The notes below the pieces were generated by a model. It was not told where the DNA came from. It searched no databases and saw nothing but the letters and a program-made list of their open reading frames with translations. A program made the position numbers and the translations under genes. Below are positions 1-24,831 of a stretch of DNA of 28,694 nt, in pieces (the stretch's first letter is position 1; each line of letters opens with the position of its first letter). Source of the stretch: a virus; the IMG/VR virus record IMGVR_UViG_3300010885_076384, positions 1 to 28,694 of that record. One strand, written 5' to 3'.

Positions 1-411
1 ACTGAAAAGTTAAATTTAGTTAAAGTAATTAAAGAAAACTTTCCTGACATACGTAAAACTATTAATGTTATACAAAAATATTGCATAACTGGTGTATTAG
101 CTATAAAAGAAAATGCAGACCGGAATGGCATCACTAATAAAATTCATAAGTTTATAAAAGAGAACAAACTTATAGAAATGAGAAAATATTTAATTGAAAA
201 CGAATTAGAGTTTCAAGGCGACTACAATAGCTTGCTTAAAAGCTATCTTAACTTTTTATATGAAGCAGATATCGTGTCAGATATAAAAGAAAATAAAAAA
301 AGAGAAGCTATATTAACTATAGCTGAATATCTTTATAGAGATGCAATGGTTCTTGATAAAGAAATTAATGCATTCGCTTGTTTTCTTACCGTATCAAAAA
401 TTATTTCTTAA
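1..411 (+). CDS. 44: Sliding-clamp loader large subunit, C-terminal part (gp44-like)
   Basis: The reading frame is open from the first base, so this is the 3' end (136 residues) of a gene that begins outside the window. The segment starts with a PDIRKTINVIQKYC stretch and continues as an almost entirely helical domain. From memory this matches the C-terminal collar region of T4 gp44, the AAA+ ATPase that with gp62 loads the gp45 clamp on DNA; T4 gp44 has a similar DMRKVV... motif followed by helices. The ATPase motifs would lie upstream, so the call rests on the C-terminal domain only. The internal ATG at 178 is not the true start because the frame is open and family-like before it. The 3' end overlaps the convergent gene by 11 nt. 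In T4 logic the clamp also activates late transcription, which fits the late-promoter-like motifs in this window. Confidence 0.68.
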   Translation, partial: TEKLNLVKVIKENFPDIRKTINVIQKYCITGVLAIKENADRNGITNKIHKFIKENKLIEMRKYLIENELEFQGDYNSLLKSYLNFLYEADIVSDIKENKKREAILTIAEYLYRDAMVLDKEINAFACFLTVSKIIS

Positions 412-1060
412 TAGTTGTCGGTAAATACATATGAGTGCTCTTAGGCACCATAGGTGACTTCATATCTTTAGCAGGGCTTGATGGTATGGTTATATTTTTG
501 TTTAACAAAGCTCTGTCTCCCCTTGTTAATTTATCACCATCTTGAGATAACATTGTCTGTAAATATGGATTGTTTGGCACTTCTTCGTTTTCTTCTGGTG
601 CAACAGGTTTTAAGTTACGTCTTTCTTTCTTGTACATACTATCTGGAATTGATACTAGATTAGCTCCGTCTTGTTTAACGACTGTTAAGATGTCTGAAGG
701 TACTGAAATTTTGTTTTCTTTATCATAACGACCTGGCGCTGTTTCAGCTGCAACTTCCACGGTAAAACATGAGCCTCTGTTATCGTCATTATTAGGTGAT
801 GATGAAGGGTAGCCAGTTTTAATATTAATTACCCGTTTATTAAGATCATTTGCACCGAAAAAGTCAGTTATGGCAGTCTGCATATCGCCACTAAGAGTTT
901 TAAAATATTCAAGACTCTTATAACCATCTCTGAGCTTGACTACATAGCCGACAAGTAGCCCACCGTTAGTATACTTAGTAATATTATTTTCAACCAATGT
1001 TAGGAACTTGTTACGCATATTATTATTTATTCTATCTCTGTAATTTTCTATTCTATCCAT
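401..1060 (-). CDS. Phage protein of unknown function, 219 aa
   Basis: I do not recognise this protein. The N-terminus (residues 1-30) is charged and helical. The middle (about 35-155) looks like a mixed alpha/beta domain with a tyrosine/glycine-rich segment. The C-terminal 65 residues are rich in Pro, Asn and Lys and probably disordered. There is no signal peptide or membrane segment. It starts 8 nt from the divergently transcribed gp25-like gene and its stop overlaps the end of the convergent clamp-loader gene, so it fills the strand gap between replication and baseplate genes. No late-promoter-like motif lies before its start on this strand. It could be a structural or an early protein; the sequence does not decide. 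Confidence 0.7.
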   Translation of the reverse strand: MDRIENYRDRINNNMRNKFLTLVENNITKYTNGGLLVGYVVKLRDGYKSLEYFKTLSGDMQTAITDFFGANDLNKRVINIKTGYPSSSPNNDDNRGSCFTVEVAAETAPGRYDKENKISVPSDILTVVKQDGANLVSIPDSMYKKERRNLKPVAPEENEEVPNNPYLQTMLSQDGDKLTRGDRALLNKNITIPSSPAKDMKSPMVPKSTHMYLPTTIKK

Positions 1061-1065
1061 AAATA
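1058..1065 (+). promoter_or_regulatory. Late-promoter-like motif CATAAATA before the gp25-like gene
   Basis: CATAAATA differs from the T4 late promoter TATAAATA at one base and lies 3 nt before the ATG at 1069. A second in-frame ATG at 1072 would give a spacing of 6, like most other copies in this window. It overlaps the divergent start codon of the 219-aa gene. Confidence 0.5.
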
Positions 1066-1068
1066 TTC

Positions 1069-1554
1069 ATGATGGCAACGTTAAATCTAGATATACTAAC
1101 AAATGTTAATGCGAATAGAACTAATTCTACTGTATATAAAGATGCAAACATAGATTTTACACTAGATAATACGTATAATAATCAGTTAGCTAAGACGTTA
1201 CAGATTACAGATCTCAATTCAGATGATAATCTCGGTGCAATATTTAACAGCATATCTAATATAATAACAACAACCCCTGGCCAAAAACCATTAAACCCTC
1301 TTTTTGGTATAAGTTTTAGAGATTTATTGTTTTTACCAGTATCAAAAGACCGTGCAAGGTTAATCGGCAATGCTATTAATTTTGGCATAGAAACGTTCGA
1401 ACCAAGAGTAAATATAATCAACATATCTATAACTCCAAAAGAAGAAGACCAACAGTATGTCATTGAATTGAGTATATCAGTTCCAAGATTTAATGTTCAA
1501 CAGGTAAAAGTATCTGGGGTTTTAGATAAAACAGGTTTTTATAAAAATAATTAA
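1069..1554 (+). CDS. 25: Baseplate wedge protein, gp25/GPW family
   Basis: The 161-residue protein fits the gp25 (lysozyme-like GPW/gp25) family of contractile-tail baseplate wedges, which joins the inner baseplate to the sheath-initiating complex. The family signature is seen in the C-terminal half: a helix followed by a segment containing FEPRVNIINISI (about 109-120) and a final strand pair, matching the EPR-containing core of gp25. T4 gp25 is about 132 residues; the extra length is N-terminal. It is followed after 5 nt by the gp6/J-like gene, the classical gp25-gp6 pair of myovirus baseplates. Either of the tandem ATG codons at 1069 and 1072 could be used. There is no Shine-Dalgarno sequence. 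Confidence 0.85.
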   Translation: MMATLNLDILTNVNANRTNSTVYKDANIDFTLDNTYNNQLAKTLQITDLNSDDNLGAIFNSISNIITTTPGQKPLNPLFGISFRDLLFLPVSKDRARLIGNAINFGIETFEPRVNIINISITPKEEDQQYVIELSISVPRFNVQQVKVSGVLDKTGFYKNN

Positions 1555-1559
1555 TTAAA

Positions 1560-3377
1560 ATGTCACAAAATTTAACAGACTTCACATTACCTAGAAACAG
1601 TTACGCAACATTTGATGCGTTAACTTTAAAACAACTCATTAAAGACCGGCTTAATGCTGGTGGGGTGTTTACTGATCAAAACTTTGAAGGCAGCAATCTT
1701 AATGCCATTATGGATGTAGTTGCTCTTTCATACCATTACCTATTATTTTATCTTAATACTACAAGTAATGAGTCGTTATTCAATCAAACCAGTTTGTATG
1801 AAAATATGAACCGGCTTGTTAAATTAATTAACTATAACCCTACTGGGTATAAAACCTCTTTATTATCATTCGAAGCTACAGCTAATACTAATTTACCTTT
1901 AAACATATATACAATCCCACGTTATAGTTATTTTACAATTAATGGTATATACTATTCATTTCCAAACGACGTAACTTTTAGTAAATCATTAACAGGTGTT
2001 GAAGACCTTACTTCCTTATATGATGAAAATTTATTATATCAAGGAAAAACTATAGAGTTTCCACCCATAGGAGCAACTGGAGAGCCTTTCGAAACGTTTA
2101 CGATTGTATCTAAAGACACTGCAACAAATACCCCTTTAAATATAGATCAATCAAGTGTTGATGTATATGTTAATAACGCTGCAACTAATGTCTTCACCCA
2201 ATACAAAGTAACTAATTCACTTTTCTTAGAGAGTAGTGATTCTAATAGTTTCGAATTACGTATAAATGAAAACGAATTCTATGAACTTAAATTTGGTAAT
2301 GGTGTATTTGGTAAAAAATTAAACCCAGGTGACGGGGTATACATTTATTATCTGCAAAGTGACGGTGCTTCTGGCATAATTTCACCAAACCAGTTAAACG
2401 GCAATACAATAAACTTTTATTCAACACCGCAATTTAATCGTATTAAACAAGATGTATTAAACACTTCGTTAAACTATTTAAACACCACAAATGCAAGTTA
2501 TATATCTTTTACTAACCCTATTGCTTCGTCACCCCCAAGTGAAAAAGAATCGGTTGATGAAATAAGATTAAATGCTCCTAAGACATTCTTTAGTCAAAAC
2601 AGGTTAATTACAGAAGTAGACTTTACAACATTTATAGACAAGAATTATAAAAATATTATAACTAGTTCTTCAACCGTTAATAATAGAAACTATATTGAAA
2701 ATTATATAAAATATTTTTATAGTTTAGGAATTACCAGACCTAATCAAGATGCAAGAGTGTTGTTTAATGAAGTTAATTTTGCTCATGCAGGCCAGGATAA
2801 CAACATTTATATCTTCATGGTGCCTAAAATAAAGACCGTAGATAGTAATAATACGCAATATTTTTTACAAAACTCGCAAAAGAACACTATATTAACATCA
2901 ATGGCTGAAGCAAAAGCTCTTAATATGGAGTTAATACCGCAAGACCCAGTATACACTGCAGTGACAATTGGTCTATTAGCACCCGGTGAAGAAGTTAATT
3001 TAGATGTTTATAAATCTACATATCTGGTTATTAAAAAGGATACAAATTTGAGAGTGGATGTAAATCAAATTAAAAATAATGTAGATGGAATATTTCAAGA
3101 TTATTTTGCACCTGAAAATTGTAAGTTAAACCAGTTAATATCTTTAAATGACATAGTATCCAAGATTTTAAGTATAAACGGCGTAAGTAATTTTAGTATG
3201 AGAAGAATTTTAGACAACGGCAGCACAGTAACAAACAATGGCTTAAATTTACTTGTGTTTAATCCAAAATATTCAGATATCGATATTCAAATACAATCAA
3301 CAGATTTACAATTGCCGTATTTTAAATTTCCGTTTTTATGGAACAAGACAATTTTAGATAATATTGTAGTTGAATAA
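1560..3377 (+). CDS. 6: Baseplate wedge protein, gp6/J-like
   Basis: At 605 residues this is close in size to T4 gp6 (about 660). It carries the baseplate-J hallmark FGNGVFGKKLNPGDGV... around residues 245-262, followed by a VYIYY strand. It also has the motif RLNAPKTFFSQNRLITEVDF around residues 335-355, where the J family reads AP..F...R.VT..DY. gp6 dimers form the continuous inner ring of the baseplate wedges and bind gp25, gp53 and gp7. It sits directly behind the gp25-like gene, with a 5-nt gap, in the same transcription unit. The ATG at 1560 has the A/T-only leader AATTAATTAAA and no Shine-Dalgarno sequence. The assignment is solid on motif plus neighbour. Confidence 0.88.
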   Translation: MSQNLTDFTLPRNSYATFDALTLKQLIKDRLNAGGVFTDQNFEGSNLNAIMDVVALSYHYLLFYLNTTSNESLFNQTSLYENMNRLVKLINYNPTGYKTSLLSFEATANTNLPLNIYTIPRYSYFTINGIYYSFPNDVTFSKSLTGVEDLTSLYDENLLYQGKTIEFPPIGATGEPFETFTIVSKDTATNTPLNIDQSSVDVYVNNAATNVFTQYKVTNSLFLESSDSNSFELRINENEFYELKFGNGVFGKKLNPGDGVYIYYLQSDGASGIISPNQLNGNTINFYSTPQFNRIKQDVLNTSLNYLNTTNASYISFTNPIASSPPSEKESVDEIRLNAPKTFFSQNRLITEVDFTTFIDKNYKNIITSSSTVNNRNYIENYIKYFYSLGITRPNQDARVLFNEVNFAHAGQDNNIYIFMVPKIKTVDSNNTQYFLQNSQKNTILTSMAEAKALNMELIPQDPVYTAVTIGLLAPGEEVNLDVYKSTYLVIKKDTNLRVDVNQIKNNVDGIFQDYFAPENCKLNQLISLNDIVSKILSINGVSNFSMRRILDNGSTVTNNGLNLLVFNPKYSDIDIQIQSTDLQLPYFKFPFLWNKTILDNIVVE

Positions 3378-3380
3378 CAA

Positions 3381-3620
3381 ATGAATAAAACTGAAATACC
3401 TAAAAAATCACTTGATGTAATTAGCTGCTTACAGTCTAATTATTGTACATTATCGTCTCCTACTTTATCTGCATATATAGTTTATGAAAATATAGACGGC
3501 GAACAATTTAAAATAACAGGGGGCAAATATGTATATAATTTACCAGATACTATATGTATAAACGGGGAAGATATTTTGATACCAATTACTGGCAAGATAT
3601 TTAATATAACTAATATATAA
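3381..3620 (+). CDS. Small phage protein of unknown function, 79 aa
   Basis: I do not recognise this protein. It has 79 residues with three cysteines and beta-strand-like alternation in the second half ([18 protein letters not shown]). It lies 3 nt after the gp6-like gene and 1 nt before the 973-aa protein, so it is translationally packed inside the baseplate operon. A small structural adaptor or chaperone is possible from position alone. Confidence 0.6.
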
Positions 3621-3621
3621 T

Positions 3622-6543
3622 ATGCCAAATTTAGTTATAGTATATTCTAATAGTAACTCTGCACCGGGACCGGGGTACGTAAACACTTCTCAGACTTATA
3701 ACTTAAACTCATTAGGGGTTACAAATATAACCCAATTAAGTGCATATACTTATTGTGCAGCGGACACCGGCTCGCCAGAAGGCTTTACTATCAACACAAC
3801 TGCCTCTGTAGGGTCAACGACCGCGTCGGCCGGCACAACCTTAACTACCGACAGTGTATCATACACTTCTTATGTTAGATGTACTGATATAAATTTAAGC
3901 GGAGGAGTTTGGACTGCAACCACCGTTGAAAGGTATGAAAACGGCACCACGACTACTACTAATAATGTAAGTTTAGGCAATGGAAATGCTTTACTTTTTT
4001 ATTCCGATTCTGGCGCTGGCCCGATATATTTAACAGTTACAAATACTCAACGTGCGCAAATCTTATATAATGACCCAACACCGACACCGACGCCTACATC
4101 AACCCCTACTGACACACCAACACCGACACCCTCTCCGACTCCAACATTAACTACAACTGCTGGGCCAACTTCTACACCAACACCAACACGAACTTTAACA
4201 CCGACCCCGACACCTACTCCATCTCCTACTAACACACCAACCCAAACAGGTACATTTATACCGGTAGTTACCCCAGCAGCCACATCAACAGGTACTCCAC
4301 CAGCAGCTACAGCAACAGGCACTCCAGCAGCCACATCAACAGGTACCCCAGCAGCTACACAAACAGGCAGTCCAATAGCTACTAACCCCCCCGCAACTCC
4401 AGCAGCCACATCAACAGGTACTCCACCAGCAGCTACACCGACACCAACATCGACACCGCCGCCTACACCAACTACTACTTACATACCTACGCCGACACCT
4501 ACCCTGACTTTAACTAATACTTCGATTGCAACAAGCACCCCACCACCAACAGCTACTCCGACACCAACCCCGACATTAACTGCAACCCCTGGGACAACAT
4601 CTACATCAACACCAACCCCGACCCTAACCAATACTTCAGTTGCAACATCCACCCCGACCCCGACAATATCACTGTCCCCGACATTAACCCCTACCCAGAC
4701 ATTAACTAATACACCAGTACCTTTACCGCCTCAACCAACATCTACATCTACACCGACATTAACACTTACATTAACTAATACTTCAGTTGCGACATCAACA
4801 CCGACGCCGACATTAACTAATACTTCAGCTGCAACATCTACACCGACGCCGACGCCGACATTAACTAATACTTCAGCTGCAACATCTACACCGACCCCGA
4901 CATTAACTGCAACCCCCGGGACAACATCTACACCGACACCGACCCTTACATTAACCAATACTTCAGCTGTAACCTCTACCCCAACTCCAACACCGACATT
5001 AACTAATACTTCAGCTGCAACATCTACACCGACACCTACCCCTACCCCGACATTAACCCCAACTTTAACACCTACATTAACATCATCAACTACTCAAACC
5101 CCGACATCCACTCCAACCCCGACTCCCTCTCCTACGTTTGTTGTATGTTATCTTTCAACAGAAGATGGTAATGGCATATTAGCAGAAAATCTAGATTATA
5201 TTATAGTAGATTGCCCAACACCTACACCAACACCGACCCCGACTCTTACAGCTACCCCGACTCTTACACCAACAGTTACTTCACCAGTAACAGCGACTCC
5301 TACACCGACCCATACAGCAACTCGTACACCTACACTCACCCGGACCCCGACCACTACACCATTTTTAACACCTACACCGACAACAACAGTAACGGCTACT
5401 CCAACTGCAGTACCGTTACCAATAGATAATTATAAGACAGTCAATTTTGACATATATAGTTTGTTAGAAATGCTATTAGCAGACCCGTCAAAATCTAATA
5501 CAGATGATAGTAGACGGAGTGCTAAATATGGTAATGAATTTGTTAATAATATAACTTTAAATAAGACACTTATAAAACAATTTATAAACTATAATACATT
5601 AGTTGCTTATTTAAATTACAGATTAACTGGTAAATTAGATCCGGTGACAAATATCATAACATCTGGCGATATTAAACCATTAACTAAACAAGAAAAAGAT
5701 TTAATTAATGCAATGTTTAGCGGGCAGTGTTATGTTAATGTTAATGAAAAGGTTTCTCCTCAAGTGTTAAATAGGGTATATGATTGTTTATACACTGCAA
5801 GTAAAAATATAAGCAGTATAATAAATGTAAAAATTACTAACGAAGATGAAATAATTAAAACTGTGTTGAACATACCACCAATCGGCCCAACACGTACAGC
5901 AACTCGTACGCCTACACCGACACCGTCACCTACATTAACATCAACACCGACTCGTACAGTAACGCCAACACCGACTCGTACAGTTACACCAACAGTAACA
6001 TATTCAGATGTTAAGATGGTTACATTAGCTGTAGCCCCTGCATATGGTACGGTCGGGTTCCAAGTCGGATATGCTCCGACCCATACCGGTCCGTCAGGCG
6101 TTGGGTACTATGCAACTGAGCCGGTTGTAATAATATATACAGCTAATGCAGGGTATGTTGTTGACGCAACAACACCATTTACAATAACTGGTAGCCCTAC
6201 AGTAGATTACTCATTAAGTGCATCGGAAATAAGCTTCTATATGCCTTCTAATAATGTATCAGTTACAGTTAATTATAGTGCCACGCCTTCACTAACACCT
6301 ACACCTACCATAGGCACACCTACTCCTACACCAACCACTCCTCTATGCAAGTTATACTATTTTATGACAACCTCTCCTTCAGGTGACGGTGTAGTAACAT
6401 ACAGACCTTGCGGGGCCGTAAGCGACACAACCATATTAATATCTAATGGTGAGACTTTCTGCGTTCAAAATGGAACCACACCGTCAGTACTAGATCCAGC
6501 CAGCTATGTCATAGCATTACTGCCTGCAGTACCGTGCACTTAA
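3622..6543 (+). CDS. Large baseplate/tail protein carrying four Thr-Pro arrays
   Basis: This 973-residue protein is a string of folded islands separated by Thr-Pro arrays. Residues 1-150 are a beta-rich, Thr/Ser-rich N-terminal domain. About 153-505 is the main array, built from T-x-T-P steps with a recurring LTNTSAATS block. A short island ([19 protein letters not shown], about 512-530) and a second array follow to 597. Residues 600-755 form a helical domain ([14 protein letters not shown]...). A third array runs to about 793. Residues 794-890 resemble a bacterial Ig/repeat domain ending in a [12 protein letters not shown] strand, and the cysteine-containing C-terminal domain starts near 910. 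The helical domain is probably the ancestral phage structural part, with the arrays as spacers. No enzymatic motif is seen. The operon position implies a virion role. Confidence 0.7.
4077..5138 (+). repeat. Main Thr-Pro coding array in the 973-aa protein
   Basis: This is a degenerate coding repeat of ACA/ACC/ACT-CCx dinucleotide codon pairs. The recurring 14-16-residue block ([14 protein letters not shown] and variants) appears at least five times between about 4600 and 5040. Synonymous third bases vary between copies, so it is older than the exact 42-nt repeats at 8271. It encodes an alternating T-x-T-x low-complexity linker. Confidence 0.9.
5212..5415 (+). repeat. Second Thr-Pro coding array in the 973-aa protein
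   Basis: This is a Thr-Pro/Thr-Ala/Thr-Arg coding array of about 65 codons between the short TEDGNGIL island and the helical domain. Smaller arrays recur at about 5887-6000 and 6293-6340 in the same gene. Confidence 0.85.
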
Positions 6544-6551
6544 TTTAAATA
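6544..6551 (+). promoter_or_regulatory. Late-promoter-like motif TTTAAATA
   Basis: TTTAAATA lies 6 nt before the ATG at 6558 and overlaps the stop codon region of the preceding gene. It shares the TAAATA core of the set described at 1058. Confidence 0.5.
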
Positions 6552-6557
6552 TTATAA

Positions 6558-7376
6558 ATGAGTTCTTACAACATTAACATATTCGCAGCTTTTTCGAAAG
6601 ACTCATTAGTTGATACGCAACAGAGACTGTCGAATTATAAAGACCCGAGCTTATTTCTTAATTCCACGCCAGTAAATCAAACATGTTCTATATCTGCGCA
6701 TAATTATGGTGATATTACTAATTTAGTTATAACCAGTAATAGTATAATGAATGGTAATTTTAATATATTTCCTATTAAATTTGCTGGTGAACGTGTAAAC
6801 TTTGTAGTGAATCTTGTCGATTATCTTGGGTATCAAGTCAAAGATTACAGTTTACTTAATTATAATAATTTTACATTTACTTTAAGCGCTCTTAATGGTA
6901 ATAACATAACTGGTGTTAGTTTTCAAACTGATTTTGGAACCTTAAGCTCGTTAACGCAAGGCGGTTTCTTTAAAGGTTATCTATATTGTCCGTTTGTTGT
7001 AAATGACGTTTCGATTAAAGCAATATATACCGATGCTAACATATCTTTAACAGGGTATTCGACTATATTTGATATTAATAGTTCATGTGGCGGCGAATAT
7101 CAAATCCGCAAAATAAATGAAGATTTTGACCAAACTAAAGCTTTTAAAAGTATAGGCACGCAGCCAGTATTGTTTGATAAGTCGCAATTTTTTGATAACT
7201 TTCTAGGACAAATAGTAGGCGATGCTAATTCTGATCCAAATACTTTAGGTATTGAGGTTTTTGAAAAAATAGCAAATTATGTTGCTAATATAAATGACCC
7301 AGATTTTTGTAATTTAGAGTCGTTAAAATCTTTATTAGATTTACTTAATGTTGACTATCAAAATTATAATTATTAA
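6558..7376 (+). CDS. N-terminal part of a large baseplate/tail protein, ended by an in-frame TAA
   Basis: These 272 residues form the N-terminal part of a protein whose frame continues unbroken after a single TAA (7374-7376). Residues 20-190 look like a beta-sandwich-rich domain (FAGERVNFVVNLVDYLGYQV; FTFTLSALNGNNITG). Residues 195-272 are helical and end in LLDLLNVDYQNYNY. The next in-frame codons read [21 protein letters not shown], which continues the same structural pattern and has no start codon for 477 nt. I therefore read 6558-9674 as one gene of 1038 residues with an ochre codon at position 273. The domain type is not recognised beyond a virion protein. It begins a transcription unit with a late-promoter-like motif. 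Confidence 0.72.
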   Translation: MSSYNINIFAAFSKDSLVDTQQRLSNYKDPSLFLNSTPVNQTCSISAHNYGDITNLVITSNSIMNGNFNIFPIKFAGERVNFVVNLVDYLGYQVKDYSLLNYNNFTFTLSALNGNNITGVSFQTDFGTLSSLTQGGFFKGYLYCPFVVNDVSIKAIYTDANISLTGYSTIFDINSSCGGEYQIRKINEDFDQTKAFKSIGTQPVLFDKSQFFDNFLGQIVGDANSDPNTLGIEVFEKIANYVANINDPDFCNLESLKSLLDLLNVDYQNYNY

Positions 7377-9674
7377 TACCCGCCTTCATTTAAACGATTA
7401 GTAGATATATTATCTGTTAAACATAAAAATTTATTCGGGCAAACTAACCAATACCAGACAAATTTTAATCCTAAAGGGTATGTAAACAGTGACAAGTATG
7501 GTATAAATAAAGGACCAGCATATAATTTTTCAACAACAACGTTTTTATCAAGTGTTGCTCCTTTTAGTCTCATAACTTATGAAAAATTTAGCAAAACGTA
7601 TAATTTAGTTAGTACTGTAATTCCAGGAATTAGTTCATATGCTTTATCAGCTGTTAATAGTAATTTTGGCTGGAATTTAGTTTTACCTCCAGGCATATCA
7701 GGAGCTGATATACCTAAATATTATGAATTTTTTAGTTATGTCCCCGATACTGAAAATTCTTTACTACAAAAATTCATAGATTTTGATAATAAAAATACCA
7801 CATTATCAATTACTAATAGTGGATATAATGAATATATAAAAACTGGCGGTATAATGGATAATATTTTATTGAATAACTTATTAACCAATTTACAAATCAT
7901 TTCTTGTTTACCAAATGAAGTTAATCTCAATATACCAACTTCAACCCCTACCCCGTCTCCGACGTTAACTTCTACTCCTACGGTGACTCCTACAGTAACA
8001 TCATCAAGTACACCTGCTCCTACAATAACATTAACTACAACCTCTACACCAACCTCTACACCAACTCCTACATTAACTCAAACTCCTACATTAACTCTAA
8101 CACCAACATTAACCCCGACATTAACACTGACACCGTCTTCTATAGCGATAGGTGCAGGTATATTATATGTAAGTTATGATCAAGATATACTTACACCAAC
8201 ACCTACTTTAACTCAAACAGGTACTCCTACTCCTACACCTACTAGTTCATTAACGTCTACCCCTACACCTACGACTTCAACAGCTCTATCAGGTACTCCT
8301 ACACCTACACCTACGACTTCAACAGCTCTATCAGGTACTCCTACACCTACACCTACGACTTCAACAGCTCTATCAGGTACTCCTACACCTACACCTACTT
8401 TAACTCAAACAGGTACCCCTACACCTACTCCTACGACTTCAACAGCTCTATCAGGTACTCCTACACCTACACCTACTTTAACTCAAACAGGTACCCCTAC
8501 ACCTACTCTATCAGGTAGCACTCCTACACCTACTCCTAGCAGTTCATTAACCTCTACTCCAACCCCCACTCTATCAGGCAGTACCCCTACACCAACTCCT
8601 ACTGTAACATTAACCTCCACACCAACACCTACTCTATCAGGTAGTACTCCTACTCCTACTCAAACAGTAACACCTACTCCTACTTCCACAGCAGCAACAG
8701 CCCCGACAGTTACCACTGATGGGTATGGAACTAGAACTCCTACTAGTGCTGAAATAACAGGGACGATAGTTAGTAATGGGGGGTCGACAATAACCGAAAG
8801 AGGAATTGTTTATGCTACTTCTCCAAATCCTACTATATCTAATACTAAAGTATCTGACGGCGCAGGTAGTCCTGACACATTAGGACCATTTACACACACC
8901 TATGCCATAACAAACTTCCATACTACCACATATGTAAGAATATATGCTACTAATGCTGTTGGTACATCGTATGGTACTGATATTAGTTTCACCTTGCCTT
9001 GTTTCATTAAAGGAACTAAAATAACTTTATCAAGTGGACTTAAAAAGAACATAGAAGATATATCTTATGAAGATTCTCTTTTAGTGTGGAACTTTGATGA
9101 AGGAAAATTTGACTCCGCAAAACCTATTTGGATAATGACTCCAGTACGTACTCAATATGTAAATATACTATTTAGTGATGGTTCAAAGCTTGGAATATCA
9201 GGGTACTTAAACCATGATGGAGGCCATCGTATATTTAATTTAGATAAGGGAGAATTTACTTATGCAATACCTAATGAACATAGCCCTATAGGAACCCATA
9301 CATTTAATGATAAAGGTGACATAGTAACAATAGTAGGTAAAGAAGAATCTACTGAGGTTGAAGAAATTTATAATGTAGTAACAAATCATCATCTTAATAT
9401 ATTTGCGGAAGGTATTCTCACTTCACGAAGATTAAACAATCTTTATCCTATAGTTGATATGAAGTTTATTAAAGACGAAAGGTCTATTACTTCAATAGAA
9501 AAATTTAAAGGTGTCCCTGCCGAATACTATGAAGGTTTAAGATTAGGTGAACAACCACTAGCAACTAATTCAGAAGGCTTCTTAGTAAAAACACCAGGAG
9601 AATTAGCTTATACACTGCCTACTATCAGTGAATTATCACAATGGACAGTAGAATTTATAAACAAAAAGTTATAA
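7377..9674 (+). CDS. C-terminal part: Thr-Pro array, FN3-like and Hint (hedgehog/intein) domains
   Basis: This is the same frame as the preceding gene, separated by TAA at 7374. Independent translation could start only at the ATG at 7854, giving 606 residues; the numbers below use that ATG. The 159 codons before it are clearly protein-like. Residues 27-283 are a Thr-Pro array with a short hydrophobic island (about 98-113). Residues 284-380 match a Bacteroidota-style FN3-like domain ([37 protein letters not shown]). Residues 383 to about 525 are a Hint domain: Cys383 in [11 protein letters not shown] is the expected nucleophile, then [14 protein letters not shown], then a C-terminal block [15 protein letters not shown]. 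The usual terminal His-Asn plus nucleophile is not evident (SRRLNN instead), so cleavage rather than splicing is more plausible. The last 80 residues are a unique tail. Confidence 0.75.
7936..8700 (+). repeat. Thr-Pro coding array of the Hint-domain protein
   Basis: This low-complexity coding array consists of T-P-T-P runs punctuated by TSTALSG, LTQTG and TLSGS blocks, interrupted once at about 8135-8195 by a non-repeat island ([16 protein letters not shown]). Codon pairs here favour CCT-ACA/ACT, unlike the ACA-CCG bias of the 4077 array. Confidence 0.9.
8271..8474 (+). repeat. Exact 42-nt tandem repeat ([14 protein letters not shown] unit)
   Basis: Three perfect 42-nt copies lie head to tail at 8271-8312, 8313-8354 and 8355-8396, with a fourth perfect copy at 8433-8474 after a 36-nt variant block. 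Each unit is 14 codons, so copy-number change preserves the reading frame. The sequence identity suggests recent duplication. Confidence 0.92.
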
Positions 9675-9681
9675 CCTGCTT

Positions 9682-10176
9682 ATGAAGATTCTCTTTCTCG
9701 ATCACCAAGGAGTAATATACTTGGAGAAAGCAATTTGGCCAGTTGGTAAACCAATACTATTAGATTTTGATCAAGGAGCGGTTAGTATTCTTAATGAAAT
9801 AATACGAGAGGTAGATTGTGAAATAGTTGTTTCTTCTGATTGGAAAACTTGGGTAGATTTACCTACAATGAAGTCATTTTATATAAACCAAGGTATAATA
9901 AAACCTCCAATCGGATATACAACAACAACTAATATTAAGGATTTAGATGATATTGCTTACTTAAGAGCTAAGGAAATAAGTGAGTGGTTAGATTCTGCAG
10001 ATAACATCACATCTTGGGTTGCAATAGATGACCTTGATATGCGAAAACACCTACCAAACTTTGTTTGGATTGAGGACGCAGAAAAAGGGATATTGGCAGA
10101 AGGAATAAAGAAAAGCGTAGTAGATCATTTAAATGTTAGATTAAATACAACTGGATACCCACACCTCAAACTATGA
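9682..10176 (+). CDS. HAD-superfamily protein (HAD_SAK-like)
   Basis: This 164-residue protein has HAD-fold order. Motif I is ILFLDHQGVIY at residues 3-13, with the first Asp at 7. Motif II is EIVVSSDWK at about 48-56. The late acidic motif is WVAIDDLDM near 112-120, followed by VWIEDAEKGI. The layout resembles the HAD domain first described in Swiss-army-knife RNA-repair proteins, common as a stand-alone gene in phages. Motif I is DHQGV rather than the DxDG(V/T) of active phosphatases, so the second Asp is replaced by Gln and catalysis may be altered or lost. It lies 7 nt after the Hint-domain gene and overlaps the protease start by 4 nt (ATGA), so the three genes are translationally coupled. 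Likely substrate: unknown 5' or 3' phosphate. Confidence 0.72.
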   Translation: MKILFLDHQGVIYLEKAIWPVGKPILLDFDQGAVSILNEIIREVDCEIVVSSDWKTWVDLPTMKSFYINQGIIKPPIGYTTTTNIKDLDDIAYLRAKEISEWLDSADNITSWVAIDDLDMRKHLPNFVWIEDAEKGILAEGIKKSVVDHLNVRLNTTGYPHLKL

Positions 10177-11450
10177 ATGATTTACATGTAACTAATTTAA
10201 AACAGGAAATAGAACGACTATTTTTAGAAAATAAATACGATATTCTTCAAGTAACATTTGGTCAAAAACAAATAAATGGCGAGTATATTAATGATAAATG
10301 TGTAAAATTTGGTGTAAAGCAAAAATTACCAGTTGAAACTATACCAGCAGACAAACTTATACCTAAAAATTTAACTATTGACGGTGTTATGTATAAAACT
10401 GATATAGTAGTGGTGCCGGAGAAAATATTTGCCCAACCTAATTACTGTTGGAATACCGGAACACAATCAGTACCACCAGTAGTTTCTGCACCGGTAAGTT
10501 ATAATAGAGCAAAAACTGCTATTTTAAGTGGTGGAATTTCATTTAGCGCACCACCAAGCACAGGGTACGTAAATGCAGGCACATTAGGTGGGATTGTTAT
10601 CGATAATTTTGATGGTAAAGTGGTTGGTATAACAAACAGCCATGTCGGTGCTGCTCCTGGAGGATCTATATACGAAGCTCCTACTCCTCAATTAATAGCT
10701 AGCTCCACAACTTACGGGTCAACAGCTTCAGCTTACAAAAATATAAAATCTTATCAACCAAGTTCGTGGGATAGAGGATCTGCTAACTACGCTCCTGATA
10801 TTATCGGAAACTTAAAAAGAGCTTACCCGATGACAACTACCGGTACAAATAAAATAGATGCTGCTTTAATAAATTTAACTGATAGTATTGTCAATACAAC
10901 TAGTTGGTACCCATTATGTGCAAATTTTTATTCAGCTACTCCATTTGCAAGTACAGCAGATATAGATAGTTTAACACTTTCAAACCCAATTTTTAAATCA
11001 AGTAGAACAACCGGGCCGGTTGGGCTTGCAGGGTGCGAATTAAGAGTTACTGGTACAAGCACCTCATTATCTGTAGATTACGGTACGCCTGGAGCTGGTA
11101 TATTATCATTCATTAATTGTTTAACTATAGAAAGCCCTGTAACTAATACAGTGGTAGGATCTGGCGGAGATTCTGGGTCATTAGTATATGGGTATATTTC
11201 AACTTCGCCTTCAACCAGTGCATGGAAAGTAGTCGGGTTGTTTTTTGCCGGTGATAGCACAGGTGGTTACGGTTTTGCATGCAGAATAGATGAAGTGACA
11301 AGCTTATTAGCAGTGTCTGCATATGATGGCATTAACGTTTCAGCAACTCCGAGTTTATGCTCTTATATTACATTACCTTACAGCACATATAGTAATACTG
11401 TGTCGACCGTTGTTAATGGTAAGAAATATTGGCAGGTTGGTAAGATTTAA
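10173..11450 (+). CDS. Trypsin-like serine protease
   Basis: The 425-residue protein shows a complete chymotrypsin-type triad in order and spacing: His157 in GITNSHVGAA, Asp229 in NKIDAALINL and Ser334 in GSGGDSGSLVYG. A final strand after the serine (WKVVGLFFAGDS) matches the fold. About 100 residues precede the protease domain, and no signal peptide is visible. Substitution of TAAH by TNSH is seen in divergent viral and bacterial S1-like peptidases. It is the last gene of the unit with the Hint-domain protein and the HAD protein, so a role in processing tail proteins, or virion-borne proteolysis at the host surface, is possible; neither is shown. The ATG at 10173 overlaps the upstream stop. 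This is not the usual T4-like prohead protease (gp21, a different fold). Confidence 0.8.
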   Translation: MNDLHVTNLKQEIERLFLENKYDILQVTFGQKQINGEYINDKCVKFGVKQKLPVETIPADKLIPKNLTIDGVMYKTDIVVVPEKIFAQPNYCWNTGTQSVPPVVSAPVSYNRAKTAILSGGISFSAPPSTGYVNAGTLGGIVIDNFDGKVVGITNSHVGAAPGGSIYEAPTPQLIASSTTYGSTASAYKNIKSYQPSSWDRGSANYAPDIIGNLKRAYPMTTTGTNKIDAALINLTDSIVNTTSWYPLCANFYSATPFASTADIDSLTLSNPIFKSSRTTGPVGLAGCELRVTGTSTSLSVDYGTPGAGILSFINCLTIESPVTNTVVGSGGDSGSLVYGYISTSPSTSAWKVVGLFFAGDSTGGYGFACRIDEVTSLLAVSAYDGINVSATPSLCSYITLPYSTYSNTVSTVVNGKKYWQVGKI

Positions 11451-11454
11451 TTTT

Positions 11455-11462
11455 AATAAATA
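11455..11462 (+). promoter_or_regulatory. Late-promoter-like motif AATAAATA
   Basis: AATAAATA ends 6 nt before the ATG at 11469, in the only gap between the protease gene and the next tail gene. One base differs from TATAAATA. Confidence 0.55.
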
Positions 11463-11468
11463 TATTAA

Positions 11469-13844
11469 ATGCTTTTTACCTCGACAGTATATTCTAATGT
11501 AGTTGTTTATAATAGCATTACAAATGATAAAAAAGATGAAAAATTTGATTTAGTCCGGCCTTTTACTTTTTTAGAATACTTAAATTACAGTAAATCATTA
11601 ACTCGAGATATAGTTCAATTTACTGACTATCAAAAATACCTTGAGAAATGGAATATATTAACAGAAGTTTCATATGTTGATTCGGCAACTCAAATTAAAA
11701 ACCAGTTTGTTGTGTTTTTAAAGACTATAACTTTAAATTATACAACAAATGAAGAAAAACGGTTTTTATCAAATATAGATTTTAATAGCTCAAGTGATTT
11801 AGAAATTGCTGCACCTTTTTATACCAATAAAATAAAAGAGATATTATTATATTTTGCAGAAAAAAGAGACACATATAAGTTAGATCTATTATTGGTTGAA
11901 AATAAAGGCACAATAGATAGTATACAAAGTTATTTAAAAACATTTGTAATCGAAACTATATTTGGCGATGATAACCCTACCTTTAATAATTTAACAGTGC
12001 CTCTAAGCACCATAAGCACCCAAATACAAATTGAGGTTGAAAATGGTTATGATAATTTTAATGATTATTTTGACTTAGACCCATCAAAAACTCCAGCATT
12101 CTATAATGCAATGGATACCCGTAAGAAATACTTTACAGCTAATACTAATATAAATGATAGTACGGTGTTTTTAGATTATAACCAAGCTATTATTAATCTT
12201 ATAAATTCAGAACAAGTTGTATTAAATGATCTTCAGAATTTAGTTGTTAATATCAACACACCTGATTTAGAGCTATTGCAAGATTACGACTTTATAGATT
12301 ACACATCCAGGACTATAGATAATGTAAAGCTTATATTAAATGCTGAACTTATAAAGAAATTTACCGGCACAGATTTTTACTATTTAAGTACTAATAATAA
12401 TAATGAAGTATTGAGTGGTGGGTTGTTTACTGCAACTTCTCCATATTCCAATCTATTAAACATAAATAATCCTGCAACATTAACTATACCTTCAACTGCA
12501 ACCGTTTTTGAAAGAGATGTTGGGTTATTTTTTAAGCCTACAAAGAGAGGTATCATACAGTTACAAACACCTTTTAAATATTATATTGACCCTTGTACAT
12601 TAAAACCGAATCATGTATATATATTTCCAGACCCAGATAGTTATGGGAATGTTTCTGGGGTAAGTAAGGTTGATCACGAGACACCTCTAACCTTTAAAAT
12701 GCAAGGTGAGGATATACAAAAAAACATATCATCTAATAATGCTCTAGGCAATACATTTGTTACTGATAATGATTTTACTTTTGATAGTTACCATTCAAAT
12801 GAGCAACGCACTAAAGCAAAAAGTTTTGCTACAACTTTATACAATAAAGGCGTTGTTAATCAATATTTTTCTGATGTATATGGCAATACATTTATTGGAT
12901 TTAAACAACAAAATTCAAATTATTTAAATAATTTAGCAGATAAAATTAACGTTAACGTGTCGCAAGTAGGGTTATCAAGCACAAGCAATATATTATACCT
13001 TAGTAGCATAGAAAATTTATTGACCGGGACGTTATCAGGTACGCAAACTCTTTCAAGTAATATAATTCTACCAAGTTCAAATCCGTCTATATACAATACC
13101 CGTAATAGTGTAGGAGCGTTTTACATTTATAAAATAGGAACTGATATTTTATCACCTTTATCTTCAGAATTTGGTGATATATTTTCAAAATATACTAACC
13201 AGATAACAGATTTAAAAAATAATTTAATTTCGATCGAATCCTATAACGATACGTTTGTATTTACAACAACTGCCCATACTATTATAGATAAAATTAATTA
13301 TAAAGATAATAATTTTTATAAATCCTCTAGCGTACCTTTAATACTTGATAATAAACGTAACAATATAACGAGTAATCCGTTTTTAATTAATAACATGTTA
13401 TATCTTATAACATATAATTTAGATACTTTAACTGTATTGTCTGCTTATAATACAAGGATATTTAATTTTAATATGTATTCATATAACATTAATACTAATG
13501 CAACTACTCGTTTATATAATAGATATAATACCAACGAACAGTTTAGCTATACAGTGGATACAAAGCTAGATGTATATAATGCTACTTTAGTGCATAACAA
13601 AAAATTAGACATATTTAATATAGCTTTAAATATAAAAGATACCAATAAAAACTTTTTCTTACACAATATACAAGCTGAAATAAAATCAGGCGCTTATATT
13701 ATATTGAAAGATACCGTATATCACCCCAATAATGTTAATGTGACTGTTAATTTTTATGATGGTAGTTTTACATATGATATAATAACTAATACTATTGTTA
13801 CAACACCAACAACTTCAAATACAAATGGAACCATCACTTTTTAA
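11469..13844 (+). CDS. Large tail/baseplate-associated protein, 791 aa
   Basis: I do not recognise a named family. The protein is rich in Asn, Thr, Ser, Tyr and Ile. The first 300 residues are mostly helical with repeated LxxLxxLxx stretches. The remainder is beta-rich with regularly spaced aromatic strands (FVFTTTAHTIIDKINYK; NMLYLITYNLDTLTVLSAYN) that recall beta-propeller blades, also seen in the minus-strand proteins at 15115-16371 and 19311-21941. No membrane segment or protease motif is present. It has its own late-promoter-like motif and overlaps the next gene by 20 nt, so the two are probably co-translated partners. A peripheral baseplate or fibre-attachment role is the best guess from composition and location. 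Confidence 0.65.
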   Translation: MLFTSTVYSNVVVYNSITNDKKDEKFDLVRPFTFLEYLNYSKSLTRDIVQFTDYQKYLEKWNILTEVSYVDSATQIKNQFVVFLKTITLNYTTNEEKRFLSNIDFNSSSDLEIAAPFYTNKIKEILLYFAEKRDTYKLDLLLVENKGTIDSIQSYLKTFVIETIFGDDNPTFNNLTVPLSTISTQIQIEVENGYDNFNDYFDLDPSKTPAFYNAMDTRKKYFTANTNINDSTVFLDYNQAIINLINSEQVVLNDLQNLVVNINTPDLELLQDYDFIDYTSRTIDNVKLILNAELIKKFTGTDFYYLSTNNNNEVLSGGLFTATSPYSNLLNINNPATLTIPSTATVFERDVGLFFKPTKRGIIQLQTPFKYYIDPCTLKPNHVYIFPDPDSYGNVSGVSKVDHETPLTFKMQGEDIQKNISSNNALGNTFVTDNDFTFDSYHSNEQRTKAKSFATTLYNKGVVNQYFSDVYGNTFIGFKQQNSNYLNNLADKINVNVSQVGLSSTSNILYLSSIENLLTGTLSGTQTLSSNIILPSSNPSIYNTRNSVGAFYIYKIGTDILSPLSSEFGDIFSKYTNQITDLKNNLISIESYNDTFVFTTTAHTIIDKINYKDNNFYKSSSVPLILDNKRNNITSNPFLINNMLYLITYNLDTLTVLSAYNTRIFNFNMYSYNINTNATTRLYNRYNTNEQFSYTVDTKLDVYNATLVHNKKLDIFNIALNIKDTNKNFFLHNIQAEIKSGAYIILKDTVYHPNNVNVTVNFYDGSFTYDIITNTIVTTPTTSNTNGTITF

Positions 13845-14373
13845 TTTTAATACATTATCGTTAGTATTATCGGCACCACCGCCGTTATCTACTAGAACCA
13901 TGTATTTATCATCATATATACAGGGGGTAACAAAAGCTCAGTTAAATTATAAACAGTTATTTTTTGTGAATTCGACAACGTTGTCTGGTATTAAACCTTT
14001 TAAGATAAAATTAGAATGGGATCAATCTTTAGGAGGTGAATCAACTGTAATTATAAATGATGTATATAAATTTGATATTAATACAGACCCCTTATCAACA
14101 TTTTCACCTCTTAATTCAGCCCTGTCATATTACGTCTACACACCTACTCAAATACAACCACAACAATTAAATTCTAAATACACAGTTTATTATGAAAATG
14201 GTATTATACATACATATCAAAATAAGGTATTCTTAATAAGTGACAATGTTATTGATATGAACTTAAACGTTACTGAGTTACAAAATGCTTACCAACCAGA
14301 ACTTAATGTATTTAACATTTCATCAGAAAAAGGTAATATGATGTTTAATGTAACTAATTACGGCGACGTATAA
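13825..14373 (+). CDS. Tail-associated protein of unknown function
   Basis: This protein has 182 residues from the ATG at 13825; an ATG 30 nt upstream would add a Gln-rich decapeptide that does not look like folded protein, so I prefer 13825. The protein is beta-rich: PFKIKLEWDQSLGG..., YVYTPTQIQP, KYTVYYENGIIHTYQNKVFLISDN. This pattern suggests a beta-sandwich or carbohydrate-binding-type module, but no family is recognised. It overlaps the 791-aa gene by 20 nt and its end overlaps the convergent lectin-like gene by 16 nt, marking the main strand switch of the structural region. Confidence 0.6.
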   Translation: MEPSLFNFNTLSLVLSAPPPLSTRTMYLSSYIQGVTKAQLNYKQLFFVNSTTLSGIKPFKIKLEWDQSLGGESTVIINDVYKFDINTDPLSTFSPLNSALSYYVYTPTQIQPQQLNSKYTVYYENGIIHTYQNKVFLISDNVIDMNLNVTELQNAYQPELNVFNISSEKGNMMFNVTNYGDV

Positions 14374-14975
14374 TTTAAATTTATATCTTTAACAGTAAAG
14401 ATAGTATCACCAGAATAAGATATACCAAACTTGCCTAAAGCAGGTAAGACCCCATTATCAATTAAATAGCTGCTATTAAAAGTAGCCAATTGATAGTAAT
14501 TGTTGTTTAATAGCTTATTAACAGTTATGGTTCTAAATTTATTCCTTACATCTAAACGAATAGTATGCTCGGTATCGTAGTCAAATGCTGTAACGTCTGG
14601 CAAAGGCAATGCAGATATAAACGTATAATTAGTTGATACTCTAGCGCCTATACTTAAAGGATTTTGCGATGGATTGCCGGTAGTAAAAGCGGATATACTA
14701 TTAATTTGTGTAAATGTCCCTTGAACGTCAAACCCTACTATAGCAAACATACCAGATACGCTAGTACCATTTGTTTTAATAGCACCTAATCCCACACCGC
14801 TACCACCTCCAGTTAATGTACTATTATTACCATCTATAAAAAATAACCCAAACCCGTTATTATTAACAGGACTCATAGATTGAGTATCCATCTTATAAAC
14901 AAAACTTACAGAAAAATCATAATCTGTATTAAATTGATTATTGTATAATATATTACTGCATGCAAGAGTTAACAT
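14358..14975 (-). CDS. Legume-type lectin-like (concanavalin A-like) protein
   Basis: The 205-residue protein resembles an L-type lectin or LamG-like jelly roll. It contains FSVSFVYKM, then GFGLFFIDGNNSTLTGGGSGVGLG (about 41-64), the strand-loop of L-type lectins, then SVSGMFAIVGFDVQGTF and a late EHTIRLDVRNKFRTITVNK strand pair. Such domains bind carbohydrate, which fits a receptor-binding accessory of the tail. The ATG at 14975 lies 8 nt after the frameshifted end of the propeller-like gene and has its own TAAATA motif 5 nt upstream. The 3' end overlaps the convergent gene by 16 nt. Calcium/sugar-binding residues cannot be assigned with confidence. Confidence 0.65.
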   Translation of the reverse strand: MLTLACSNILYNNQFNTDYDFSVSFVYKMDTQSMSPVNNNGFGLFFIDGNNSTLTGGGSGVGLGAIKTNGTSVSGMFAIVGFDVQGTFTQINSISAFTTGNPSQNPLSIGARVSTNYTFISALPLPDVTAFDYDTEHTIRLDVRNKFRTITVNKLLNNNYYQLATFNSSYLIDNGVLPALGKFGISYSGDTIFTVKDINLNYTSP

Positions 14976-14980
14976 ATAGT

Positions 14981-14988
14981 TATTTACT
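14981..14988 (-). promoter_or_regulatory. Late-promoter-like motif AGTAAATA before the lectin-like gene
   Basis: AGTAAATA ends 5 nt before the ATG at 14975 on the minus strand. It overlaps the TAA that ends the alternative-frame extension of the upstream gene. Confidence 0.45.
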
Positions 14989-15169
14989 TTAAAATGGTAT
15001 CAAACAAGGTTTTTTCATTATAACTTAATAACTGGTCATATCCATATACTAAGATATTATCATAATTCTGCAAACTATCGTATGATACTATATCATATAA
15101 GTATGAAAATGGGTCTAACCCTTTTGGACCAACAATCGAACCTGTAATATTATAACAAATGAAAAATTT
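14984..15169 (-). pseudogene. C-terminal extension of the propeller-like protein in the -1 frame
   Basis: The frame that overlaps the end of the 418-aa gene, displaced by -1, encodes a good protein-like tail of about 61 residues (KFFICYNITGSIVGPKGLDP..., ending KTLFDTILK). In contrast, the annotated frame ends in an unlikely FVIILQVRLLVQKG. This tail has no start codon of its own and fills the otherwise empty space up to the lectin-like gene. The frames join cleanly at A-AAT-TTT (15169-15163). It is either the product of a -1 frameshift or the remnant of an indel. Confidence 0.7.
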
Positions 15170-16371
15170 CCTATATTCCCGTATATATTAGATATAAATT
15201 TTTTATACAATGTTTTATTAGTTAATAAATAAAATACATCTGAATCAGTATTACTAAAAATAAGCTTTATAGGCACTTCATCAGATATAAACCCTGTTGT
15301 ATTTAGACTGTAAATTGTAGAATTAGCTAATGAATCTAAAACTATAATTTTAAAATCAGAAGTCAATACAAATAATTGATCTTGCAGTTTATAATATGTT
15401 AATGATACTGGCGGTGTTGCGCTAAATACTACATTATTTTTATATGAGTTAACCCTATTAAAGTTTTTATCATAAAAATAAATTATACCGCTCGTATCAT
15501 ATACATATATTGTATTATCAGAAGCAGCTATCAACGCAGGAGTTGCAAAGCCACCTTGTTTCTGATAAACAGTATTTACAAGATCAAATTTTTTACCTAA
15601 TGCACGATCTTCTGTCAATACACCTGTTATATCATATGCATATACAGCGTTATTACCTGAATCGCATATATAAAAATAGTTAGATGAATTAGCGACAGAT
15701 ACTATATTTTTAAATTTTAATTCACTATAACCGGCTATGTTATTAGTTTCGACTCTATAAGATGAAAATACAGGATTAAATGTTGATAATGGTCTATTAA
15801 CATTAAACACCATTACTGAACTTAAGTTTGCAATAACTAAAGTATGGTTATGTTCATTAGTTGCATATTGATTAGGTATAAAAGAAATTTTACTATTTCG
15901 AGTTATTTCTGAGTTATAAGCAGAAAATGCAGATGTATATGTATTTGAACTACTATACTGCCATATTGGCCTAGCTAAACTAGTATTTGTAGCCGATACA
16001 CGAGCTAGGCCAGTGTAATTATAAGGTAACTTAGATGATGCTGAAAAACAACTTTTATATATATCTATAAAATTATTAAATGATTTTTCAATCTTTAAAT
16101 TAATAGAATTGGTGTTTACGTACTCATTTGGTTGGAATAAAAAATCTGATAATGTATAACTTAAGGTTATATTTTCTGTAGGTATTCTATTATAAAATTT
16201 ATCTGATAAAGCAACTGCAGTCTGAATAGATTTATTGGTTTCTAATATATTAACCTGTTCATATTTACTTGCGTACGCAACGTTATCTACAACGTTATAG
16301 TATCCAATATAGTCTCCGCTTAGAGTAAACAATCCCCCGGTTGTATATGCAAATTTTTTAATATTGGTCAT
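15115..16371 (-). CDS. Beta-propeller-like tail protein (0-frame part)
   Basis: These 418 residues contain blade-like repeats, each with paired aromatic strands: HTLVIANLSSVMVFNVN (about 178-194), YFYICDSGNNAVYAYDITG (about 232-250), NTIYVYDTSGIIYFYDKNFN (about 288-307), QLFVLTSDFKIIVLDS (about 334-349) and VFYLLTNKTLYKKF. This resembles NHL/WD-type propellers used in ligand binding. The start at 16371 lies 3 nt after the stop of the 125-aa gene, so the two are coupled. The last 14 residues seem out of frame, and the natural continuation lies in the -1 frame to 14984. Its partner downstream is a lectin-like protein, a pairing mirrored by the propeller-like plus LamG composite at 21941-16781. 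Confidence 0.68.
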   Translation of the reverse strand: MTNIKKFAYTTGGLFTLSGDYIGYYNVVDNVAYASKYEQVNILETNKSIQTAVALSDKFYNRIPTENITLSYTLSDFLFQPNEYVNTNSINLKIEKSFNNFIDIYKSCFSASSKLPYNYTGLARVSATNTSLARPIWQYSSSNTYTSAFSAYNSEITRNSKISFIPNQYATNEHNHTLVIANLSSVMVFNVNRPLSTFNPVFSSYRVETNNIAGYSELKFKNIVSVANSSNYFYICDSGNNAVYAYDITGVLTEDRALGKKFDLVNTVYQKQGGFATPALIAASDNTIYVYDTSGIIYFYDKNFNRVNSYKNNVVFSATPPVSLTYYKLQDQLFVLTSDFKIIVLDSLANSTIYSLNTTGFISDEVPIKLIFSNTDSDVFYLLTNKTLYKKFISNIYGNIGNFSFVIILQVRLLVQKG

Positions 16372-16374
16372 TGT

Positions 16375-16752
16375 TTAAGGTGTTATTGTATATTCTACCC
16401 AAGATAAACTATCCTCAACCCAATTATATAGTTTACTGTCAGATGGACGTGTAGTAGGTGCATCCCAACAACATGTAAGTTCATTTAATATCCAAGACGG
16501 GTATGGTTTAGGTGGTATAAAAGCATCTCTACCCGCATCATAAGTATAACCTATACCTGCATAATTTTTACGAAAAGGGATACCTCCTAGACGGTGCACG
16601 TTAGCAGAGGTATTATAGCTTGTCTGTAACCAGGTGCCTCCAAAATTTAAATCCTTAGCTAAAAAATCCTGACCGCGGTCTTGATCATTATCGCTGACCA
16701 CTACACCTCTTATTACTACGTTATTTGAATCTATTTCTACGAAATGGGCCAT
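16375..16752 (-). CDS. Conserved T4-like marine phage protein, 125 aa
   Basis: The protein begins MAHFVEIDSNNVVIRGVVV and continues with GGTWLQTSYN, RKNYAGIGYTYD and a Trp-rich C-terminal part (KPYPSWILNE..., CCWDAPT). From memory this N-terminus and the KYAGIG.TYD motif are typical of a family widespread in T4-like cyanophages and other marine myoviruses, usually near tail-fibre genes. Its function is not established; the tail-fibre context suggests a fibre or baseplate accessory. The ATG at 16752 has a late-promoter-like motif 6 nt upstream. Confidence 0.75.
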   Translation of the reverse strand: MAHFVEIDSNNVVIRGVVVSDNDQDRGQDFLAKDLNFGGTWLQTSYNTSANVHRLGGIPFRKNYAGIGYTYDAGRDAFIPPKPYPSWILNELTCCWDAPTTRPSDSKLYNWVEDSLSWVEYTITP

Positions 16753-16758
16753 ATATTT

Positions 16759-16766
16759 TATTTAAT
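16759..16766 (-). promoter_or_regulatory. Late-promoter-like motif ATTAAATA
   Basis: ATTAAATA on the minus strand ends 6 nt before the ATG at 16752. Confidence 0.45.
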
Positions 16767-16780
16767 TACCATGTTAGGTC

Positions 16781-23657: not shown

Positions 23658-23876
23658 ATGATCAAATGGATTGAAATTGTAGGTTTAATGAATTCTGAGT
23701 ATAGAGACGATCATTACTCAAAGGTAACAGTAGATACACTGTTACTTATGGTAGAGGAGAGAAACATTACGGATTTAATAGCGAATAAAGTAGAACATTA
23801 CTTACAAAACAATATACCACTAGATGCTCTAATTAAAGCATGCAGCGATTTTAACATTACAACAAACCATGAATAA
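23658..23876 (+). CDS. Small phage protein of unknown function, 72 aa
   Basis: I do not recognise this protein. It has 72 mainly helical, acidic residues (VDTLLLMVEERNITDLIANKVEHYLQ). It overlaps the GMP reductase gene by 8 nt, so the two are translationally coupled and form a short plus-strand unit with the glycosylase-like gene. No late-promoter-like motif precedes it, which hints at early or middle expression. Confidence 0.6.
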   Translation: MIKWIEIVGLMNSEYRDDHYSKVTVDTLLLMVEERNITDLIANKVEHYLQNNIPLDALIKACSDFNITTNHE

Positions 23877-24831
23877 TATATTATACTCATATAAAGACAT
23901 CGTACTTATGCCAGAGTACTCCAATCTCGTTTCCCGTAAGCTTGCTAATTGTAAGCCAACGTTTTTAGGTAAAGTCTTTAATAGTGTAGCAGTACCATCG
24001 AACATGAAATGCACTATAGATTTTGCAAAAGCTGTCGATTTGAGCGAGAAAGGATATTTTTATATCTTACATAGGTTTTATAATTATCTAGAAATTATTG
24101 ATTGGTTAGTTTATAACCAAGATTTGCCTACAATTTCAATTTCAATTGGTACGCAAAAGACTGATTACGAATTGATACAAAATATTGCTATTAACAATTT
24201 AAGAGTAGATTATATTACGATTGATGTTGCACATGGTCACCATTTATCAGTTAAGTTAATGATAGAGTTTATTAAAAAAACATACCCAACAGCGTTTGTT
24301 ATTGCTGGTAATATCGGAACATATAAAGCTGCGGTAGATATGAAATCTTGGGGAGCAGATGCTGCGAAGGTAGGGTTGTCAATGGGTAAGAGTTGCACGA
24401 CATATAATTGTACAGGAGTAGGTACCCCGATGTTTAGTGCAATTAGAGATATTTGTTATAATGATGAAAACCAAGTATATTACCCACCTTTACCAATCAT
24501 TGCAGATGGGCAGGTTAGAGAGGTTGGAGATGTTTGTAAAGCTTTAGTTGCCGGCGCAGATATGGTTATGATAGGTAGTGAGTTTGCAAAGTGTTGCGAT
24601 AGTCCAGCAGATATACTTATGAATCAAAAAGTATTTTACGGTAGTGCGTCTTCATATAATAAAAATTCAGAACATTATGTTGAAGGTCAAAAAGTATTAC
24701 TTGATCAACGCACGGAAAATTATTACGGATTTTTTAAACGAATTAATGAAGGTGTACAAAGCTGTATGTCTTATGCGGGGACAGACCGCTTAGAAGGGTT
24801 AAGGGAAATGCAATACAATATTCATTATTAA
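23869..24831 (+). CDS. guaC: GMP reductase (IMPDH/GMPR family)
   Basis: The 320-residue protein is a complete IMPDH/GMPR TIM barrel without CBS domains. Seen in order: YKDIVLMPEYSNLVSR at the N-terminus, ITIDVAHGHH (about 123-132), FVIAGNIGTYKAA (about 143-155), GADAAKVGLSMGKSCTTYN with the catalytic Cys176, then GVGTP, PIIADGQVREVGDVCKAL (about 208-225) and GADMVMIGSEFA. Lack of CBS domains, small size and the C-terminal EGLREMQYN segment fit GMP reductase better than IMP dehydrogenase; the usual CTTR is CTTY. The enzyme converts GMP to IMP with NADPH, allowing adenine nucleotide synthesis, which would suit an A/T-rich phage genome. IMP dehydrogenase activity cannot be fully excluded. Confidence 0.82.
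   Translation: MNNILYSYKDIVLMPEYSNLVSRKLANCKPTFLGKVFNSVAVPSNMKCTIDFAKAVDLSEKGYFYILHRFYNYLEIIDWLVYNQDLPTISISIGTQKTDYELIQNIAINNLRVDYITIDVAHGHHLSVKLMIEFIKKTYPTAFVIAGNIGTYKAAVDMKSWGADAAKVGLSMGKSCTTYNCTGVGTPMFSAIRDICYNDENQVYYPPLPIIADGQVREVGDVCKALVAGADMVMIGSEFAKCCDSPADILMNQKVFYGSASSYNKNSEHYVEGQKVLLDQRTENYYGFFKRINEGVQSCMSYAGTDRLEGLREMQYNIHY

Follow-up and report, generated by a model that had tools for sequence, protein, structure and literature searches.

An in-frame ochre codon in a baseplate-region gene of an uncultured phage is very probably a private nonsense change

Stop codons that are followed by an open, conserved frame are known from the leaky coat genes of phages. The A1 protein of Qbeta is made by readthrough of a stop that is a UGA and is kept in the family. 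The locus studied here is alike in that an in-frame stop precedes an open frame coding for conserved protein; unlike that of Qbeta A1, its stop is a UAA and is not kept even in a nearly identical sibling contig. A second described situation is the nonsense variant or consensus error that occurs once, in a single metagenome-assembled viral contig, while a near-identical record and the homologues covering the position are open. Our locus matches this situation, and we found no point on which the two differ. Viral contigs may contain assembly errors (PMC11727651).

The window, by which we mean the whole stretch of DNA analyzed (28,694 nucleotides of IMG/VR record IMGVR_UViG_3300010885_076384), carries a TAA at 7374–7376, in frame with the ATG at 6558 and with the stop codon ending at 9674. 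This TAA separates an upstream ORF of 272 aa from a downstream ORF of 606 aa that begins at ATG 7854. The features of the region are as follows.

1069–1554, GPW_gp25 protein, upstream neighbor of the interrupted gene (family match)
1560–3377, plus strand, gp6-like baseplate wedge protein, the neighbor that gives the tail context (phrog_219, E 8.5e-40)
6558–9674, plus strand, the whole interrupted gene (a single open 1038-aa ORF in the sibling contig)
6705–7088, plus strand, Ig-like domain by predicted fold, about aa 50–177
7104–7904, plus strand, conserved domain cut by the stop, about aa 183–449, of an unnamed phage protein family (homologue alignments and predicted model)
7374–7376, plus strand, in-frame TAA, codon 273, private to the window's record (a Glu codon in the sibling contig)
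7377–7853, plus strand, run of 159 codons after the TAA free of stops and of ATG, GTG and TTG (codon scan)
7938–8698, plus strand, Thr/Pro-rich repeat region with approximate limits (translation; similar extension in homologous locus L013)
8985–9671, plus strand, C-terminal part, possibly Hint-like (Hom_end_hint, E 0.052, below the cut-off)

The original prediction described one 1038-codon gene interrupted by an ochre codon and followed by 159 codons with neither stop nor start. The ORFs and translations of the window confirm the in-frame TAA, and a codon scan confirms the run for stops and for ATG, GTG and TTG; the rarer start codons in 7377–7853 are limited to ATA and ATT. Given the base composition of this segment, 159 codons would stay open by chance with a probability of about 1e-6; its five remaining frames contain 10, 30, 18, 3, and 16 stops. 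Because the open run is so improbable and the other five frames are closed, the frame beyond the TAA is coding now or was until very recently.

To place the TAA among related sequences, we compared the window with its closest record. A protein search of IMG/VR identified a sibling contig of 30,296 bases (IMGVR_UViG_3300027754_000314) whose DNA overlaps positions 1–17032 of the window at 99.96% identity, with six substitutions and a single one-base indel. The substitutions comprise three silent changes, two amino acid replacements, and the stop itself: the sibling has a Glu codon there, one substitution away, and encodes the same frame as a single 1038-aa ORF, so the length first proposed was correct. 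Two pattern scans of IMG/VR with the variable base left open, which may leave out the window's own record, returned no further near-identical contigs.

More distant relatives agree with the sibling. With five aligned sequences of the domain that surrounds the stop, we collected 71 homologous loci from IMG/VR, the sibling included; several are duplicates, and all enter the counts. The position of the TAA holds a sense codon in each of the 70 loci that cover it; the single exception to coverage, L078, is cut by its contig end. No stop occurs in any aligned piece of the 71 loci. The residue at this position is variable, with 12 different residues among the homologues and Asn in the closest relative, L013 (69% identical in the domain). 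Beyond this position, Pro 275, Ser 286, and Trp 372 do not vary across 50 sequences. The deep alignments omit L079 (the sibling again), L068 (domain in two separated pieces), identical copies, and six loci that are cut short (L061, L064, L067, L075, L076, and L078); alignment A2 comprises 51 loci plus L002, and alignment A3 comprises 49 of these 51 plus L002, without L029 and L031.

These comparisons also bear on whether 6558–7376 and 7854–9674 could be two separate genes, the second with its own start. ATG 7854 does open a 606-aa ORF, yet the 159 codons ahead of it encode conserved protein, and no ORF among the homologous loci ends at the stop position, as would be expected if relatives carried a separate downstream gene. 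The peptide patterns of the homologue scan lie upstream of the stop, so genes ending there would not have escaped it on that account. The homologues rule out a separate downstream gene, and we regard this arrangement as highly improbable.

We conclude, with high confidence, that the TAA is a private single-base nonsense change in a gene that is normally uninterrupted, either a consensus error or a recent and probably inactivating mutation. The intact allele is present both in the near-identical record and in the related ones, in line with the original view of one gene cut by an ochre codon.

Three origins had been proposed for the stop, namely a sequence error, a recent nonsense mutation, and readthrough yielding short and long forms of one tail protein. 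The first two stand, and the third finds no support. In a readthrough scheme, the UAA would be bypassed at some rate to give proteins of 272 aa and 1038 aa, and the frame past the stop is indeed open and conserved. Against this, the stop is kept neither in the 99.96% identical contig nor in any of the 70 covering loci, and it falls within a conserved domain. Its context is also that of an ordinary terminator. UAA-U counts as an efficient terminator in bacteria, and the tetranucleotide TAAT found here is the commonest terminator in the window (10/19 ORF ends). The 120 nt after the stop fold no better than shuffled sequences (z 0.20), revealing no unusual RNA structure. Neither the window nor the sibling contig yielded a tRNA gene, and hence no suppressor tRNA gene, but both are genome fragments and may lack it. 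Functional readthrough is therefore very unlikely. Slightly less likely still is a real on/off polymorphism at this codon in the phage population, in which some genomes make the 272-aa truncated tail protein, possibly offset by low-level UAA readthrough; if it were true, the truncated form would lack the Thr/Pro-rich and C-terminal parts as well as the remainder of the conserved domain.

The open frame after the stop is likewise the one observation in favor of this phage reading TAA as an amino acid. TAA terminates 17 of the 19 ORFs counted in the window, a count that leaves aside the interrupted ORF's own end at 7376, the ORF already open where the window begins, and the ORF with a TTG start at 13795–14373; the latter two also end in TAA. 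We rejected a recoded TAA because it is the usual terminator, with TAAT the commonest form, and consider reassignment the least probable of all the readings.

The gene normally encodes one uninterrupted protein of the tail or baseplate region. A predicted structure for the first 453 residues of the intact protein (mean pLDDT 73.6) has an Ig-like domain followed by the conserved domain, which is helical and beta (mean pLDDT 80.9 when modeled alone), and codon 273 lies in a loop of the latter, between helices 253–262 and 276–285. If the TAA is real, translation would stop in this loop after 272 aa, about 177 residues of the conserved domain would be removed, and the following 159 codons would offer no standard start codon. 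Such a truncation would probably mean loss of function.

A real, recent nonsense mutation would imply a defective or minority phage genome, or a dispensable C-terminal part, and it is a tenable explanation to which we give a little less than even weight. A single substitution separates the stop from the sibling's codon, and the Thr/Pro-rich and C-terminal extension past the domain is missing in most relatives: of the 64 loci that contain the 3' end of the ORF, 53 have it at most 12 residues from the domain match. Among eight loci inspected at their ends, L013 and L047 carry a Thr/Pro extension resembling that of the window. The stop, however, also deletes the conserved-domain residues and not just this extension. 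As a single near-identical contig was found, the stop allele could conceivably be common in this very population.

Selection on the gene was estimated by comparing the sibling with L013. Omega was 0.129 for the 271 codons that precede codon 273 and 0.119 for the 176 codons that follow it; with synonymous distances close to saturation (1.4 and 2.0, respectively), both values are rough. As judged from these aligned sequences, the estimates show purifying selection on both sides of the TAA codon. The same relative, which is 72% identical in the gp6-like protein, served as outgroup to polarize the differences between window and sibling. All four differences that it can polarize, a small number of sites, are changes on the window's side. 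L013 has the sibling's codon and not the window's at 2711, shares the sibling's residue and not the window's at 3088 and 6741, and has a sense codon at 7374, for a residue differing from the sibling's. Polarity at 3088 is that given by L013, because more distant gp6-like proteins vary there, three rows showing either the same type of residue as the window or a different small residue. The changes at 458 and 13139, both silent, lie beyond L013's reach and hence outside the polarized set.

At 15154, within minus-strand ORF 15115–16371, the window has a one-base deletion relative to the sibling that leaves the end of the ORF shortened and altered; the sibling's version extends to overlap the next open frame. 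A search for relatives of this ORF returned the sibling contig only. Also on the minus strand, the large ORFs 19311–21941 and 16781–19396 overlap by 86 nt (19311–19396), and the second starts with ~28 residues that represent the end of the first read in the wrong frame. A frameshift has probably divided a single gene of about 1,700 codons at 16781–21941. A search with ORF 19311–21941 gave no relatives, so both of these cases have less behind them than the stop.

Taken with the polarized substitutions, these frames bear on the possibility that the phage has a sense codon at 7374 and that the contig is wrong. Because it is the window that departs at every polarizable difference and at the truncating one-base indel, and a further pair of genes looks frameshift-split, we lean towards a consensus error as somewhat likelier than a real nonsense allele, a judgment made on small numbers. 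That three of the six substitutions are silent, as expected of real divergence, speaks against an error. We put the probability of an error at slightly better than even. For comparable cases, a near-identical contig and homologues can settle the status of an in-frame stop in a lone contig before readthrough is proposed.

The nature of the encoded protein was approached through its neighbors and its predicted fold. The label of baseplate or tail protein given in the original prediction draws its support from the neighboring genes, and from these only. Because the gene follows gp25-like and gp6-like genes, with a gp6-like match in 69 of the 71 homologous loci (evidence of position), we infer a structural function for its product, in the baseplate or close to it. 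A 973-aa Thr/Pro-rich ORF separates the window's gp6-like gene from the interrupted gene. A useful by-product of this work is a protein family that commonly accompanies gp6-like baseplate genes of uncultured phages and for which these searches gave no convincing Pfam, PHROG, or PDB match.

Compared with PDB by Foldseek and VIA-align, aa 50–177 matched Ig-like structures (best Z 9.1, rmsd 3.0, 102 aligned residues), Ig-like being a common fold. The same tools gave no convincing solved relative of the conserved domain alone, and two baseplate chains (Z 2.3 and 2.2) were discarded as too weak. The best viral structure match of the N-terminal 453 residues was A0A6J7XER1 in BFVD, a “PKD domain containing protein” of an uncultured Caudovirales phage (E 6.2e-27, 23% identity over 579 alignment columns); it differs in its length of 1177 aa and reaches a query-normalized TM-score of only 0.48. 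No match to a protein in the annotated phage collection was obtained.

Sequence profiles were similarly sparing. Among five members of the domain scanned, none matched Pfam and one matched PHROGs (phrog_34051, E 0.0044, at a limit of 0.01), and none of 50 members had a PHROG match at 0.001. At its full 1038 aa, the protein gave a match to phrog_15511 (E 1.4e-5) within the Thr/Pro region, probably through composition. Against PDB sequences, the profile of alignment A3 had no match, and two myoglobin chains found with that of alignment A1 (E 0.077) were taken as chance. No family match was found for the FN3 domain that had been suggested. The tentative Hint assignment of the C-terminal part falls below threshold in Pfam (Hom_end_hint, as listed above), with one intein chain at E 0.19.

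Several minor observations were made in the course of these comparisons. In L068 (5001–8615), the domain match consists of two segments separated by almost 3 kb within one open frame of 2211 aa. This pattern suggests either that a large insertion has kept the frame or that the domain is present in a second, partial copy. Elsewhere in the window, 9682–10176, 10173–11450, and 23869–24831 encode HAD_SAK_2, protease-like (phrog_20754), and IMP dehydrogenase / GMP reductase-like proteins, respectively. Thr/Pro-rich repeats occur in three separate ORFs of the window (3622–6543, about 7938–8698, and within 16781–19396) and are alike at the DNA level, on both strands.
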